A stretch of 64,000 nt of DNA from Haloprofundus salinisoli (GTDB taxonomy: Archaea; Halobacteriota; Halobacteria; Halobacteriales; Haloferacaceae): assembly GCF_020097815.1 (NCBI RefSeq), contig NZ_CP083663.1, forward strand, positions 1,488,001-1,552,000. The letters are read 5' to 3'. The notes under the pieces are model-generated. The model searched no databases and was not told the origin of the DNA. It saw only the letters and a list, made by a program, of their open reading frames with translations. Positions within the stretch are counted from its first letter, which is position 1; the number at the start of each line of letters is the position of its first letter. This document shows positions 29,922 to 34,661 of this stretch, in pieces. A program made the position numbers and the translations under genes.

Positions 29922-31082
29922 ATGCATATCGTCGTCGTGGGTGGCGGAATCGTCGGGTTGTCCTGCGCGTTCGCGCTCGCCGAGCGCGGCGCGGCGGTCA
30001 CCGTCTGCGAGTCGGGGACGCTCGGCGGCGGCAGCACCGCCCGCTCCGCCGGTGGCATCCGAACGCAGTTCTCGACGCGGGTGAACGTCGAACTCTCGCT
30101 TTCGAGTCTCCCGGTCTGGGAGTCGTTCGAGGAGCGATTCGGCGTCGACATCGCCCACAACCGGACTGGCTACCTCTTTCTCGCCCGCGAGGACGACACT
30201 GCCGACGCGTTCGGCGAGCAGGTGGCGATGCAGAACGACTGCGGCGCGGAGAGCGAACTACTCTCGCCGGACGAGGTGGCCGAGCGGTGGCCGCACGTCC
30301 GGAGCGAGGCGTTCGTCGCCGCTACCTACTCGCCTCTCGATGGCTTCGCGGATCCGTACCTCGCGCTGCAGGGGTACGCCACCGCGGCCCGAGAGGCGGG
30401 CGTCGACATCCGAACGAAGACACCGGTGGAAGGAATCGAGCGCGTCGGGTCCGGCTCCCGCTTCCGCATCGTGACGGGCGGCGAGGCAGCCGAGACTCTC
30501 GACGTCGACTACGTAGTCAACGCGGCGGGCGCGTGGGCCGGCGAGGTGGCGGCGATGGTCGGTCTCGACCTGCCCGTCTCGCCGCGGCGGCGACAGATCG
30601 CGGTCGTCGAACCCGAGATTCCGGTCGCAGACGCCGAACCGCTCACCATCGACCTCGATACGGGGTCGTACTTCCGGCCCGAGCGCGAGGGCCAAGCGCT
30701 CGTCGGCGGGCAGTTCGACGAGGACGACGCGGACGTCGACCCCGACCGCTTCTCGGAGTCGATGGACCTCGACTGGGCGGTGACGGCCGTCGAACGCGCC
30801 GGCGACTGCGCCGACTACTTCGGCCCCGAGACCCGCGTCGTCCGCGGGTGGGCCGGACTGTACGCCGTGACGCCCGACCACCATCCAATCGTCGAGGAGA
30901 GCGCGCCGGGCGTCGTCACGGCGGCGGGTTTCTCGGGCCACGGCTTTCAGCACGCCCCCGCGACGGGCCGCGTCGTCGCCGAACTCTGTCTCGCCGGCGA
31001 GGCGTCGCACGTCGACGTGTCGGCGCTGTCGTCGTCGCGGTTCGAGGCGGCCGAGGTCATCGAGGAGCGGAACGTCGCCTGA
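29922..31082 (+). CDS. FAD-dependent oxidoreductase (DAO family, sarcosine/D-amino-acid oxidase-like)
   Basis: 386 residues from MHIVVVGGGIVGLSCAFALAE; the GxGxxG dinucleotide loop is at residues 7-12. Typical DAO motifs are STARSAGGIRTQF near residue 40, a DYVVNAAGAWAG strand and a C-terminal FSGHGFQHAPATGRVVAEL loop. These enzymes oxidise N-methylated or D-amino acids, glycine or dipeptides. The divergent ornithine cyclodeaminase-like gene suggests an amino-acid catabolic unit. The reductant acceptor and substrate cannot be told. Confidence 0.9.
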   Translation: MHIVVVGGGIVGLSCAFALAERGAAVTVCESGTLGGGSTARSAGGIRTQFSTRVNVELSLSSLPVWESFEERFGVDIAHNRTGYLFLAREDDTADAFGEQVAMQNDCGAESELLSPDEVAERWPHVRSEAFVAATYSPLDGFADPYLALQGYATAAREAGVDIRTKTPVEGIERVGSGSRFRIVTGGEAAETLDVDYVVNAAGAWAGEVAAMVGLDLPVSPRRRQIAVVEPEIPVADAEPLTIDLDTGSYFRPEREGQALVGGQFDEDDADVDPDRFSESMDLDWAVTAVERAGDCADYFGPETRVVRGWAGLYAVTPDHHPIVEESAPGVVTAAGFSGHGFQHAPATGRVVAELCLAGEASHVDVSALSSSRFEAAEVIEERNVA

Positions 31083-31100
31083 GAGTCGGCCCTCGCAACG

Positions 31101-31130
31101 TTTTTACTCGGGTGTCACAATCTGACGCAC
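31101..31130 (+). promoter_or_regulatory. Leaderless promoter upstream of the phe leader ORF
   Basis: TTTTTAC at 31101-31107 is centred 27 bp before the ATG at 31131, the spacing expected for transcription starting at that ATG. No comparable AT-rich box precedes pheS at 31363, so this appears to be the promoter for leader plus pheST. Confidence 0.6.
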
Positions 31131-31214
31131 ATGGCATCCGAACCCCGACTCGGACCGAGGAGACGCCCAGCGCAGTCGCTTCGCGGGTTCGGTTTCTTCT
31201 TTACGGCCGCCTGA
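31131..31214 (+). CDS. Putative phenylalanine leader peptide upstream of pheST
   Basis: A 27-codon frame (MASEPRLGPRR, then RPAQSLRGFGFFFTAA) with four Phe codons in five positions (20, 22, 23 and 24, around Gly21) near its end. It starts exactly where a leaderless transcript from the TTTTTAC box should begin and ends 148 bp before pheS. The stop TGA (31212-31214) lies in the loop of a GC-only hairpin (GCCGCC-TGAG-GGCGGC, 31206-31221). This parallels bacterial phe attenuator peptides, in which ribosome stalling at Phe codons controls pheST. Archaeal attenuation of this sort is not established to my knowledge, so the role is inferred. Confidence 0.6.
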   Translation: MASEPRLGPRRRPAQSLRGFGFFFTAA

Positions 31215-31256
31215 GGGCGGCGGACTCTCCGACGGCGCGAGAGCGTCGCCGGCGAC
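31206..31256 (+). promoter_or_regulatory. Candidate attenuator hairpins of the pheST leader
   Basis: Three potential stems follow the Phe codons. The first is GCCGCC/GGCGGC (31206-31221), with the leader stop codon in the loop. The second is CGACG (31230-31234) with CGTCG (31244-31248). The third is the palindrome GTCGCCGGCGAC (31245-31256), which overlaps the second and so is mutually exclusive with it. Alternating structures are what attenuation needs, but no clear T-run follows, and GC-rich DNA makes chance stems common. Confidence 0.4.
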
Positions 31257-31362
31257 GAAACCGCTCGGGTCGGCCACGCGCTCGGCGCTCCCGCGACGGA
31301 CGCCGGGCGTTCGGAACTGCTAACAGGCGGGCAAACGGTGTCCACGACAATCAGCACTCAGT

Positions 31363-32865
31363 ATGCGACTCCCGGAATCACAGGTCGCGGTGTTGGAAGC
31401 CGCGAGCACGGACGCAAAGACGGTCGGCGAACTCGCCGACGAGACAGGATTGAAACCCGAGACGGTGACGCGGGCGGTCTTCGACCTGCGCGACGACGGC
31501 CTCGTCGCCGTCGAGGAGCGGACCGAGACGACGACGACGCTCACCGAGGAAGGTGAACAGTACGTCGAGGCGGGGCTGCCCGAGGTTCGCCTCTACCGCG
31601 CCGCCGTCGACGCGGGCGGTACCGACGGCGCGGTCCCGATGGGCCGGGTCATCGGCGCGTCGGGCCTCGGGGGTCCCGAGGTCGACATCGCGCTGTCGAA
31701 CTTCGCGCGGAAGGGCTACGGCCGCATCGACAGCGGCGAGTTGGTCGTCGACCCCGACGCCGACCCCGACGCCGACGCGGAGGTGACGGCGCTGGCGGCG
31801 CTCGCCGCGGGCGAGAGCGTCGACGACGAACAGGTGCTCGACGAACTCGACCGCCGCGGCCTCGTCGACCGAGACGAGTCGACGGTTCGCTCCGTCTCGC
31901 TCACCGACGACGGCGTGACCGCGATGATGGAGGGCGTCGAAGTCGCGGAGACGGTCGACCGCCTCACACCCGAACTGCTCACGTCCGGCGAGTGGCGCGA
32001 CGTGGAGTTCACCGAGTACAACGTCGAGGCCGACGCGCCCGAGGAGCGCGGCGGGAAGGTCCACGTCCTTCGGCAGACCGCCGAGAGGGTGAAGGATACG
32101 CTCGTCGGCATGGGCTTTCAGGAGATGGAGGGACCGCACGCAGATTCGGAGTTCTGGATCAACGACTGCCTGTTCATGCCGCAGGACCACCCGGCGCGCA
32201 CTCACTGGGACCAGTTCGCCCTCGACGTGCCGCCGATGAAAGAGATTCCCGAAGGCCTCCTCGAACGCGTCGAATCCGCCCACCGCGAGGGCGTCGGCGA
32301 CGACGGCGACGGCTACCACTCGCCGTGGACCGAGGACGTGGCGCGCGAGGTCGACCTCCGCGGACACACCACGTCGCTGTCGATGCGCTACCTCTCGGGG
32401 GACGCCGAGGGCGAGTTGGAACCGCCGCAGCGCTACTTCTCCGTCGAGAAGGTGTACCGCAACGACACGCTCGACGCGACCCACCTGCTGGAGTTCTTCC
32501 AGATCGAGGGCTGGGTGATGGCCGAGGAGCTCTCGGTGCGCGACCTGATGGGGACGTTCGAGGAGTTCTACCGCCAGTTCGGCATCACGGATGTCCAGTT
32601 CAAACCGCACTACAACCCGTACACGGAGCCGAGCTTCGAGCTGTTCGGTCGGCACCCGACGACGGGCGAACTCATCGAAATCGGTAACTCGGGGATGTTC
32701 CGCCCCGAGGTGCTCGAACCGCTGGGCGTCGACTGCGACGTGATGGCGTGGGGCCTCGCGCTCGAACGCCTCGCGATGCTCGTCACCGGTGCCGAAGACA
32801 TTCGGGACCTGCACGGAACGCTCGCCGACCTCGACTTCCTGCGGAACGCGGAGGTGATTCGCTAA
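31363..32865 (+). CDS. pheS: Phenylalanyl-tRNA synthetase, alpha subunit
   Basis: 500 residues, the archaeal/eukaryotic length. N-terminal winged-helix DNA-binding-like domains (about 1-200, LPESQVAVLEAA, VGELADETGLKPETVTRAV) precede the class II catalytic core. In the core are motif 2 (YFSVEKVYRNDTLDATHLLEFFQIEG) and motif 3 (GLALERLAMLV). It forms an alpha2beta2 enzyme with PheT. The stop TAA overlaps the pheT ATG by one base. Expression is probably set by the Phe leader region upstream. Confidence 0.97.
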   Translation: MRLPESQVAVLEAASTDAKTVGELADETGLKPETVTRAVFDLRDDGLVAVEERTETTTTLTEEGEQYVEAGLPEVRLYRAAVDAGGTDGAVPMGRVIGASGLGGPEVDIALSNFARKGYGRIDSGELVVDPDADPDADAEVTALAALAAGESVDDEQVLDELDRRGLVDRDESTVRSVSLTDDGVTAMMEGVEVAETVDRLTPELLTSGEWRDVEFTEYNVEADAPEERGGKVHVLRQTAERVKDTLVGMGFQEMEGPHADSEFWINDCLFMPQDHPARTHWDQFALDVPPMKEIPEGLLERVESAHREGVGDDGDGYHSPWTEDVAREVDLRGHTTSLSMRYLSGDAEGELEPPQRYFSVEKVYRNDTLDATHLLEFFQIEGWVMAEELSVRDLMGTFEEFYRQFGITDVQFKPHYNPYTEPSFELFGRHPTTGELIEIGNSGMFRPEVLEPLGVDCDVMAWGLALERLAMLVTGAEDIRDLHGTLADLDFLRNAEVIR

Positions 32866-34661
32866 TGCCAGTCGTAGACGTAGACACGGACGAACTTCGC
32901 CGGTTGACCGGCCACGAGGAGAAATCGGACGACGAACTCAAAGACGACCTGTTCGCGCTCGGCCTCGAGTACGAGGGCGAGACGGAAGACGGGCTCATGC
33001 AGTTCGAGTTCGGCCCGGACCGCCTCGACCGCCTGTCGGTCGAGGGCGTCGCCCGGTCGCTTCGCTACCAGTACGGCGACGACCGCGGCGTGTACGTCCC
33101 GCAGACGAACTCGCCCGACTGGACCATCGACGTCGACGAGTCGGTGCCAGAGCAGCGTCCGTACGTGACGGGCGCAATCGTCCGCGGCGTCGACCTCGAC
33201 GAGGACGCCCTCGACTCGTTCATCCAACTCCAGGAGAAGCTCCACGCGACGATGGGTCGAAAGCGCGTCAAGGGCGCTATCGGCATCCACGACCTCGTGA
33301 TGCTGAAGGGGGCGAACCTCGGCGAGCGCGACGTCGGAGCCGACAGCGGCCCGGAGGAGGTGAACGAGCGACGCGAGTCGAGTCCGCGAACGAGGGGTAA
33401 CTCCATCACCTACCGCGGGGTCGACCCCGAGGGCGAGCGGTTCGTCCCGCTCGACTCGAACGCCGAGTTGACGCCCGGCGAGGTGCTCGAACGGCATCCA
33501 ACGGGCGAGAAGTACGCCGACGTCGTCGCCGACTACGAGCGCTACCCGGCCATCTACGACGAACTCGGCCTGTTCTCGTTCCCGCCGGTCATCAACGGTC
33601 GGCGGACGGAAGTCGACGAGGATTCTACTGATTTGCTCGTCGAACTCACCGGCACCGACCAGTGGACCATCGACAAGATGTGTAACATCATCTGTTACGC
33701 GCTGTCGGCGCGCGGCGGAACTATCGAGGAAGTGGAAGTCGAGACGCCCGAAGGGACGCTCGTCCGCCCGGACTTCGACGTCGACACCAAGACGGTCGAA
33801 CACGACCGCATCGAGACGCTTCTCGGGACCGACCTCGACTTCGAGGAGGTCGTCGACCTGTTCGAGCGCTCTGGTCTCGACGCCACCACGAATCTCGGCG
33901 ACGAGATGAGCTACGAGGTCGAGATTCCGCCGTACCGCGTCGACGTTCTTCATCCTGTGGACCTCGTCGACGACGTGGGTCGCGCCTACGGCTTCAACAC
34001 GCTCGAACCGCGCTATCCCGACGTGGGGACCGTCGGCGGCCGCCACGACCGCTCGGACCTCGAACGTTCGGTGCGCGAGCGGCTCGTCGGCCTCGGCTTC
34101 GAGGATATGCTGAACTTCCACATGACCGACGAGGCGACGAACTACGACCGGATGGGGCTCGATAGCGAGACGCCGGAAGCGTCTCGAACGGACGACACCG
34201 CCCTCGGCGCGACGCCGCCGGTCCGCATCGTCGAACCCTACAGCGAGGACTACACCATGCTGCGGACGTGGGCGCTCCCGTCGCTGATGACGGTGCTGGA
34301 GAACAACACCCACCGCGCGTACCCGCAGGAGCTCTCGGAAGTCGGCTTCGTCGCCCACGAGGAGAGTGAGGCGAACACCGGCGTCGCCGAGAGCCACCGC
34401 GTCGCGGGCGTCCTCGCGCGCTACGACGCGACGTACGAGGACGCGAAGGCCAAACTGCAGGCGCTCTGCCGCGACTTCGGCGTCGAGCTGGAGACGCCCG
34501 CCGCCGAGCATCCGTCGTTCATCGACGGCCGCACCGCCGCCGTCGTCGTCGACGGCGAGCCGGCGGGCGTAATCGGCGAGATTCATCCCGAGGTGCTGGT
34601 CGAACACGACCTCGAACTCCCCGTCGTGGCGTTCGAGTTCGAGCTGGCGGCGTTGGCGTAG
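32865..34661 (+). CDS. pheT: Phenylalanyl-tRNA synthetase, beta subunit
   Basis: 598 residues from MPVVDVDTDELRRLTGHEEK, the archaeal PheT size, without the bacterial N-terminal EMAP-type and C-terminal anticodon-recognition extensions. B3/B4 and B5 domain stretches are seen (HATMGRKRVKGAIGIHDL, LDFEEVVDLFERSGLDAT, VEIPPYRVDVLHPVDLVDDV), followed by a catalytic-like module. It provides tRNA binding and editing for the PheST enzyme. The start overlaps the pheS stop by one base, so translation is coupled. Confidence 0.96.
   Translation: MPVVDVDTDELRRLTGHEEKSDDELKDDLFALGLEYEGETEDGLMQFEFGPDRLDRLSVEGVARSLRYQYGDDRGVYVPQTNSPDWTIDVDESVPEQRPYVTGAIVRGVDLDEDALDSFIQLQEKLHATMGRKRVKGAIGIHDLVMLKGANLGERDVGADSGPEEVNERRESSPRTRGNSITYRGVDPEGERFVPLDSNAELTPGEVLERHPTGEKYADVVADYERYPAIYDELGLFSFPPVINGRRTEVDEDSTDLLVELTGTDQWTIDKMCNIICYALSARGGTIEEVEVETPEGTLVRPDFDVDTKTVEHDRIETLLGTDLDFEEVVDLFERSGLDATTNLGDEMSYEVEIPPYRVDVLHPVDLVDDVGRAYGFNTLEPRYPDVGTVGGRHDRSDLERSVRERLVGLGFEDMLNFHMTDEATNYDRMGLDSETPEASRTDDTALGATPPVRIVEPYSEDYTMLRTWALPSLMTVLENNTHRAYPQELSEVGFVAHEESEANTGVAESHRVAGVLARYDATYEDAKAKLQALCRDFGVELETPAAEHPSFIDGRTAAVVVDGEPAGVIGEIHPEVLVEHDLELPVVAFEFELAALA

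Follow-up and report, generated by a model that had tools for sequence, protein, structure and literature searches.

The 64,000-nucleotide stretch of Haloprofundus salinisoli DNA that was analysed (the window) carries pheS (31363–32865) and pheT (32865–34661) on its forward strand, encoding the alpha and beta subunits of phenylalanyl-tRNA synthetase, respectively. The identity of pheS is read from its sequence and agrees with the Haloferax annotation in PMC4983044; that of pheT, which overlaps the pheS stop codon, is assigned from its position and translated sequence. The upstream neighbour gene ends at 31082 and is followed on the same strand by a candidate leader promoter composed of CGCAACG and a TTTTTAC box (31094–31107, with the box at 31101–31107), from which transcription is predicted to start at or next to the ATG at 31131. 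This ATG opens a 27-codon frame (31131–31214, MASEPRLGPRRRPAQSLRGFGFFFTAA and stop) with the Phe codons TTC, TTC, TTC and TTT at codons 20 and 22–24, and a 148-nt gap separates its stop codon from pheS. Two RNA structures are proposed here on the forward strand. Stem A lies within the frame and pairs CCGAACCC of codons 3–5 (31138–31145) with GGGTTCGG (31185–31192), directly upstream of the last three Phe codons, TTC TTC TTT (31194–31202), which we call the sensor codons. Hairpin B (31215–31266) directly follows the leader stop and consists of helix P1 (31215–31220 with 31261–31266), an internal loop CGGAC/CGAAA and helix P2 (31226–31238 with 31243–31255). Further downstream, the block CGGAACTGCTAAC (31312–31324), about 40 nt before pheS, represents a possible second promoter or another conserved element.

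The leader frame is far beyond chance expectation, given its top rank in a scan of the organism's own genome and its recurrence in five genomes of the genus. In the scan, which covered about 864 kb for a promoter followed by a short frame with repeated rare residues, the pheS leader is one of the two top-ranked candidates; the other has no convincing downstream gene, and no other codon-run leader in this 864 kb is convincing besides that of pheST. Across the genus, pheS is the one site at which the pattern of promoter, ATG and three Phe codons is present in each of the five genomes, while the equivalent His-run pattern gives nothing shared.

A pheS orthologue is found in all 391 genomes searched within the class, the nearest named relative being H. 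marisrubri (L003; 94% PheS identity). Upstream regions were compared for 80 named loci and about 80 loci from genomes picked to cover the genera of the class, with duplicates removed and, outside the organism's own family (f1), mostly one genome per genus. The leader ORF is present at 122 of the 158 distinct haloarchaeal pheS loci. It is widespread in f1 and is kept in families f2 (6/7), f3 (12/16), f4 (25/26), f6 (2/2), f7 (3/3), f8 (3/3), f9 (1/2) and f10 (2/2), and was not found in the loci of two deep lineages, f5 (0/1) and f11 (0/3). The original prediction had described a TTTTTAC promoter and a 27-codon frame with four Phe codons in five positions, and both are borne out in the relatives: the T-rich box starts 29–30 nt upstream of the leader ATG in 112 of 125 leaders, and the peptides follow the consensus M.[SP]E[PS][HR]...GFGFFFA(R)*, the middle being free to vary. 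In archaea, a box-to-ATG spacing of 29–30 nt means that the transcript begins at the start codon, so the mRNA is predicted to be leaderless. To judge from this alignment, the Phe-rich frame before pheST is real, functional-looking and ancient.

Several loci depart from this arrangement. Ten of them (L016, L019, L062, L067, L069, L079, L081, L138, L140 and L147) have no leader, and most of these retain the promoter-like block; its retention without a leader in several lineages suggests repeated loss of the leader. In the genus of L169, the leader ORF ends about 37 nt upstream of pheS, with neither Hairpin B nor the promoter-like block. In the metagenome assembly L024, the leader is frame-shifted by one base, which reflects either a sequencing error or decay. 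Among the loci examined, the element is found only in Halobacteria; sampling outside the class is weak and comprises archaeal loci only. An insensitive search beyond the class with the Hairpin B model returned three Halobacteria and one weak match (E = 0.006) in another family.

The Phe codons of the leader fall into two kinds. The one before glycine is never TTT; TTC stands there in 106 of 120 leaders, and when Phe is lost from this position the codon becomes TCC, GTC or CTC, with a matching change in the arm at the start of the frame. By comparison, the three sensor positions interchange TTC and TTT (75/29, 60/42 and 77/21, respectively) while Phe is kept. This contrast in synonymous variation indicates that the pre-glycine codon is held by RNA pairing and the sensor codons by coding. 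TTT makes up 92 of 304 (30%) sensor codons, as compared with 78 of 1440 (5.4%) Phe codons of pheS, an enrichment that possibly favours slower decoding.

Stem A is supported by compensatory change. Its arms are CCGAATCCC with GGGATTCGG in L021, L061 and L072, CTCGAACGCG with CGCGTTCGAG in L008 (Halorubrum), GCCCGACACCGC with GCGGGGTCGGGT in L014 (Halolamina), CCGAGCCC with GGGCTCGG in L139, GTCGGACG with CGTCCGAC in L074, and CCGGACCCG with CGGGTCCGG in L013, where the Phe codon has become Ser. Among the 98 distinct pairs of arms, 89.7% of positions can pair (80.3 ± 0.7 in shuffles), the covariation score is 0.292 (0.150 ± 0.009 in shuffles), and 74 cells are changed on both sides, as compared with 26.8 in shuffles and a maximum of 37. 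Since shared ancestry can mimic covariation, we also used a phylogenetic null in which the parsimony substitutions of each column are re-placed at random on the PheS tree. Stem A scores 0.325 against 0.126 ± 0.038 under this null and is exceeded in none of 1000 simulations. The minimum-energy fold of the leader in the window contains Hairpin B and lacks Stem A, and its stability is no better than that of shuffles; in light of this model, Stem A may form only co-transcriptionally or transiently.

Hairpin B covaries as well. In 48 aligned sequences its internal loop reads YGGA(N)/(N)GAAA, with the bases GGA and GAAA invariant, and the helices vary freely. Paired cells amount to 91.5%, and covariation reaches 0.597 against 0.166 in shuffles, falling to at most 0.146 when the partner is slid by 1–3 columns. 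Against the phylogenetic null, P1 scores 0.453 (null 0.137 ± 0.040) and P2 0.787 (null 0.167 ± 0.050), each exceeded in 0/1000 simulations, and the slid controls of Stem A, P1 and P2 in this test are unremarkable and not significant. Furthermore, each strand complements its own partner better than those of other species (t = 17 for Stem A, 12 for P1 and 16 for P2). A stricter nearest-pair test on the PheS tree, which has low power, retains P2 (p = 0.004), with Stem A and P1 not significant. A covariance model of Hairpin B finds the pheS site as its only significant match in the organism's own genome, the next best, at E = 0.14, falling within a protein-coding gene and being rejected.

The two structures are placed at characteristic distances from the sensor codons. 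The last Phe codon lies 17.6 ± 1.8 nt from the Hairpin B loop, although the distance from stop codon to loop varies from 5 to 13 nt, and the two component distances compensate each other (r = –0.66 overall; r = –0.74 in the subset on the tree, 0/2000 tree-based simulations, with 5/2000 for the spread of the sum). The Phe-to-hairpin spacing thus is constrained across the aligned leaders. Counted from the last Phe codon, P1 starts after a median of 10.5 nt; from the end of the Stem A arm to the last base of the stop codon, the median distance is 19 nt. Bacterial ribosomes cover about 13–15 nt behind the P site and 10–12 nt beyond the A site.

We consider it probable that the element is a ribosome-position sensor of charged tRNA-Phe that adjusts pheST expression. 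Translation of the leader mRNA would start immediately upon its emergence. A ribosome paused at the Phe codons would cover the 3' arm of Stem A, leaving Stem A open, and the base of Hairpin B would then lie at the mRNA entry site with Hairpin B closed. A ribosome that has moved on to the stop codon would cover the 5' strand of P1 and open Hairpin B, its rear edge now just past the Stem A arm, so that Stem A could re-close over the start region. Because the position of the ribosome would open or close each structure, opposite RNA states would result: an open Stem A with a closed Hairpin B under Phe shortage, and the converse under Phe sufficiency. The shortage state may raise pheST output, which is the least certain step of the proposal. 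As neither Hairpin B nor any hairpin of the gap is followed by a U-run in the window, our guess is that factor-dependent termination or polarity acts in the untranslated gap while Hairpin B is open.

Published start-site data bear on this locus. The Haloferax volcanii transcription start-site map of Babski et al. 2016 (PMC4983044) includes in its Table 2 a pheS 5'-UTR of 150–250 nt that contains a frame of 26 aa (2772 Da, pI 5.9) with its own start site and no additional start at pheS itself, as well as a 23-aa frame upstream of a plasmid trpS, for which a separate start site is likewise given. The same table holds upstream frames in the long 5'-UTRs of HTH-10 regulators and ABC transporters. 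The authors term such frames small proteins or uORFs and offer a 'small gene directly upstream' as an alternative; in the available portions of the article the frame sequences are not given, and cognate codons, RNA structure, conservation and attenuation are not mentioned. The leaders of genus g6, for example MASEPKRGTRASEPTTDGFGFFFLTA of L191 (26 aa, pI 5.9), fit the published description, and g6 may be Haloferax. The 26-aa and 23-aa frames are almost certainly the pheS element and its Trp counterpart. The upstream pheS frame was therefore already tabulated for H. volcanii in 2016, uninterpreted; what appears to be new here is that the element is archaeal and leaderless and is built from different RNA parts.

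We examined trpS2, a haloarchaeal trpS paralogue, because of the trpS entry in Table 2 of PMC4983044. A leaderless ORF with Trp codons stands in front of trpS2 at all 37 loci examined, namely 7 plasmid and 30 genome loci (L240–L277, with L243 left out), as in MTTAPWRWWSPLSGADSPAVVVAAA of the organism's own genome, MQSAPTCWRWRAPGADSLAFAA and MVSTSHANCWRWHASWEVDSGAV. The own-genome trpS2 (L256) lies at G000:C1:1279156-1280292, with the Trp leader about 84 nt upstream. In these leaders, the first codons pair with a stretch downstream of the Trp codons (CCGCTCCC with GGGAGCGG, CCACTTCCC with GGGAAGTGG, CTACTTCCC with GGGAAGTAG), and the covariation of this stem is 0.339 against 0.204 ± 0.015, the comparison here being with shuffles and not with a tree-based null; L255 and L276 were misassigned in that run, and their leaders were taken from a separate reading. 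Like the Phe leader, the Trp leader is a leaderless ORF with cognate codons whose start arm pairs with a segment adjoining the sensor codons. In contrast to the Phe leader, whose sensor codons follow the stem, the Trp leader has them in the stem's loop, and no YGGA/GAAA hairpin is recognised. On the plasmids, trpS loci L242, L245, L246 and L247 (Haloprofundus sp. MHR1, Natrinema and strain XH8) have a GTG-start leader, MSTS.ETDER.WR*, in which Trp is encoded once and the stem of the other Trp leaders recurs. Downstream of the Trp leader at L249–L277 lie a TAACCCG segment, which is conserved, and GCTCACTCGCTTTCTC, a stretch rich in pyrimidines; together these could be a terminator. Since the leaders of two synthetase genes are each rich in the cognate amino acid, they are better read as sensors than as stray small genes, and we regard this as the strongest argument for the sensor reading.

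An alternative is that the frame belongs to an independent small gene or RNA transcribed from a promoter of its own, pheST being driven by a promoter at 31312–31324 and the two being neighbours without regulatory coupling. The block at these positions resembles the leader promoter and is matched at 104 of 122 loci with a leader and at 28 of 36 without one, at a median of 34 nt upstream of pheS. This retention irrespective of the leader, together with the 'small gene directly upstream' that Babski et al. (PMC4983044) allow for such cases, is what the alternative can draw on. The conserved block also makes doubtful the original prediction that no second TATA box precedes pheS, although the available H. 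volcanii data, with no start mapped at pheS (PMC4983044), favour that claim and speak against the separate gene. The block is probably the pheS promoter in species without a leader; where a leader is present, it may be a promoter of low or conditional activity, which the H. volcanii map does not show in use and which could bypass the leader. In addition, the cognate amino acid in the leaders of both pheST and trpS2 would be unexpected of unrelated small genes, and the middle of the peptide is not conserved. We therefore hold two uncoupled neighbours to be unlikely, and a leader coupled to pheST remains our preferred reading.

Hairpin B could instead be a protein-binding site, for example for PheRS, its GAAA resembling the tRNA-Phe anticodon, with feedback control through the bound protein and with the Phe codons merely tuning translation. 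A loop invariant in G, G, A and GAAA between helices that vary is what a binding site would look like. However, the YGGA/RAAG motif forms consecutive sheared G-A pairs and is stable, which accounts for the invariance without a ligand, and the element has no match above chance in Rfam 15. Moreover, protein binding leaves unexplained both the conservation of Phe through TTC/TTT exchange and the constrained Phe-to-hairpin spacing. We rate a protein-binding role as improbable.

Attenuation of the classical Escherichia coli pheST type, with terminator and antiterminator formed by a hairpin at the stop codon and by stems in the gap, is what the original prediction had envisaged structurally. The Phe-rich leader, the presence of hairpins and the pheST target all suit such a scheme, and the stop-codon hairpin GCCGCC-TGAG-GGCGGC can indeed be drawn in the window. 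Over 106 species, however, this hairpin does not covary (complementarity 13.1 for own and 13.1 for cross-species pairs) and looks incidental, as far as alignment can tell, and no covarying, mutually exclusive stems were detected in the 148-nt gap. The other pairings tried were likewise rejected. The Phe codons can pair with the GAAACC of Hairpin B in the window (CGGUUUCUUC with GACGAAACCG) and show no covariation in this pairing; the middle of the ORF is not convincingly more complementary to the post-stop region or the Phe codons of its own species than to those of other species; and neither the 3' strand of P1 nor the ORF start has a covarying partner downstream. For the region 3' of Hairpin B, no covarying pairing was found with the ORF start, the Phe codons or the 3' strand of P1 within a search window of 60 nt past GAAA, which thus covers the pheS start in some species only. 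Within this range, the comparison gives no sign of translational attenuation of the erm type, in which an alternative hairpin hides the start codon of the downstream gene. In the Natrialbaceae-type loci L061, L072, L125, L133, L136 and L137, the last codons, GCCCGG, can pair with CCGGGC after the stop; this pairing around the stop codon has no class-wide support. Since all alternative pairings tested lack covariation and the gap hairpins lack a U-run, the classical scheme appears highly improbable.

Programmed frameshifting at the Phe run has next to no probability: a U-rich codon run about 10 nt upstream of a stable hairpin does recall frameshift sites, but the distance between leader and pheS shows no preference among the three frames (47/42/36), and the shifted frames yield no conserved product.

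Taken together, the conservation, the synonymous Phe codons, the covariation and the start-site data strongly support, at the level of sequence comparison, an attenuator-like Phe leader for haloarchaeal pheST. Of the original prediction, the regulatory idea stands in this form, and alignment across haloarchaea keeps the frame and its Phe run; the stop-codon hairpin is unsupported, its place being taken by Stem A within the frame and Hairpin B after it. More broadly, we lean slightly toward the view that leader-peptide attenuators of synthetase genes (Phe at pheST and Trp at trpS2) arose in Halobacteria as a class of their own, suited to leaderless mRNAs, with Stem A and Hairpin B at pheST switching in opposite senses while one ribosome advances from the sensor codons to the stop codon. 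If true, ribosome and RNA polymerase in archaea would be coupled closely enough for amino-acid supply to be sensed on mRNAs that lack a 5' leader. A class-wide archaeal case with an independent Trp counterpart would also offer a handle on termination versus continued transcription when translation stops, and the pheS leader lends itself to direct testing with a reporter in Haloferax volcanii.

Although control by leader-peptide attenuation is found in every textbook, it is to our knowledge known from bacteria only. Full-text searches, which covered open-access articles other than preprints, returned no report of it in archaea, and any priority is therefore provisional. T-box riboswitches resemble the present element in sensing tRNA charging, as proposed here, upstream of aminoacyl-tRNA synthetase genes. 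They differ in having no leader peptide, and neither the T-box Stem I specifier loop nor the T-box bulge is matched above chance here in Rfam 15. As compared with the bacterial leader-peptide attenuators of pheST, pheA and trp (E. coli pheM, pheL and trpL), the haloarchaeal element is archaeal and starts leaderless without a Shine-Dalgarno sequence, its start-codon arm pairs just upstream of the sensor codons, and its post-stop hairpin carries a purine internal loop. Because these RNA parts differ and no U-run terminator or covarying antiterminator was found here, we do not class it as a member of the bacterial type. It is nevertheless proposed to work like one, with a short ORF rich in cognate codons, the same pheST target, and RNA structures sited where the position of the ribosome can alter them.
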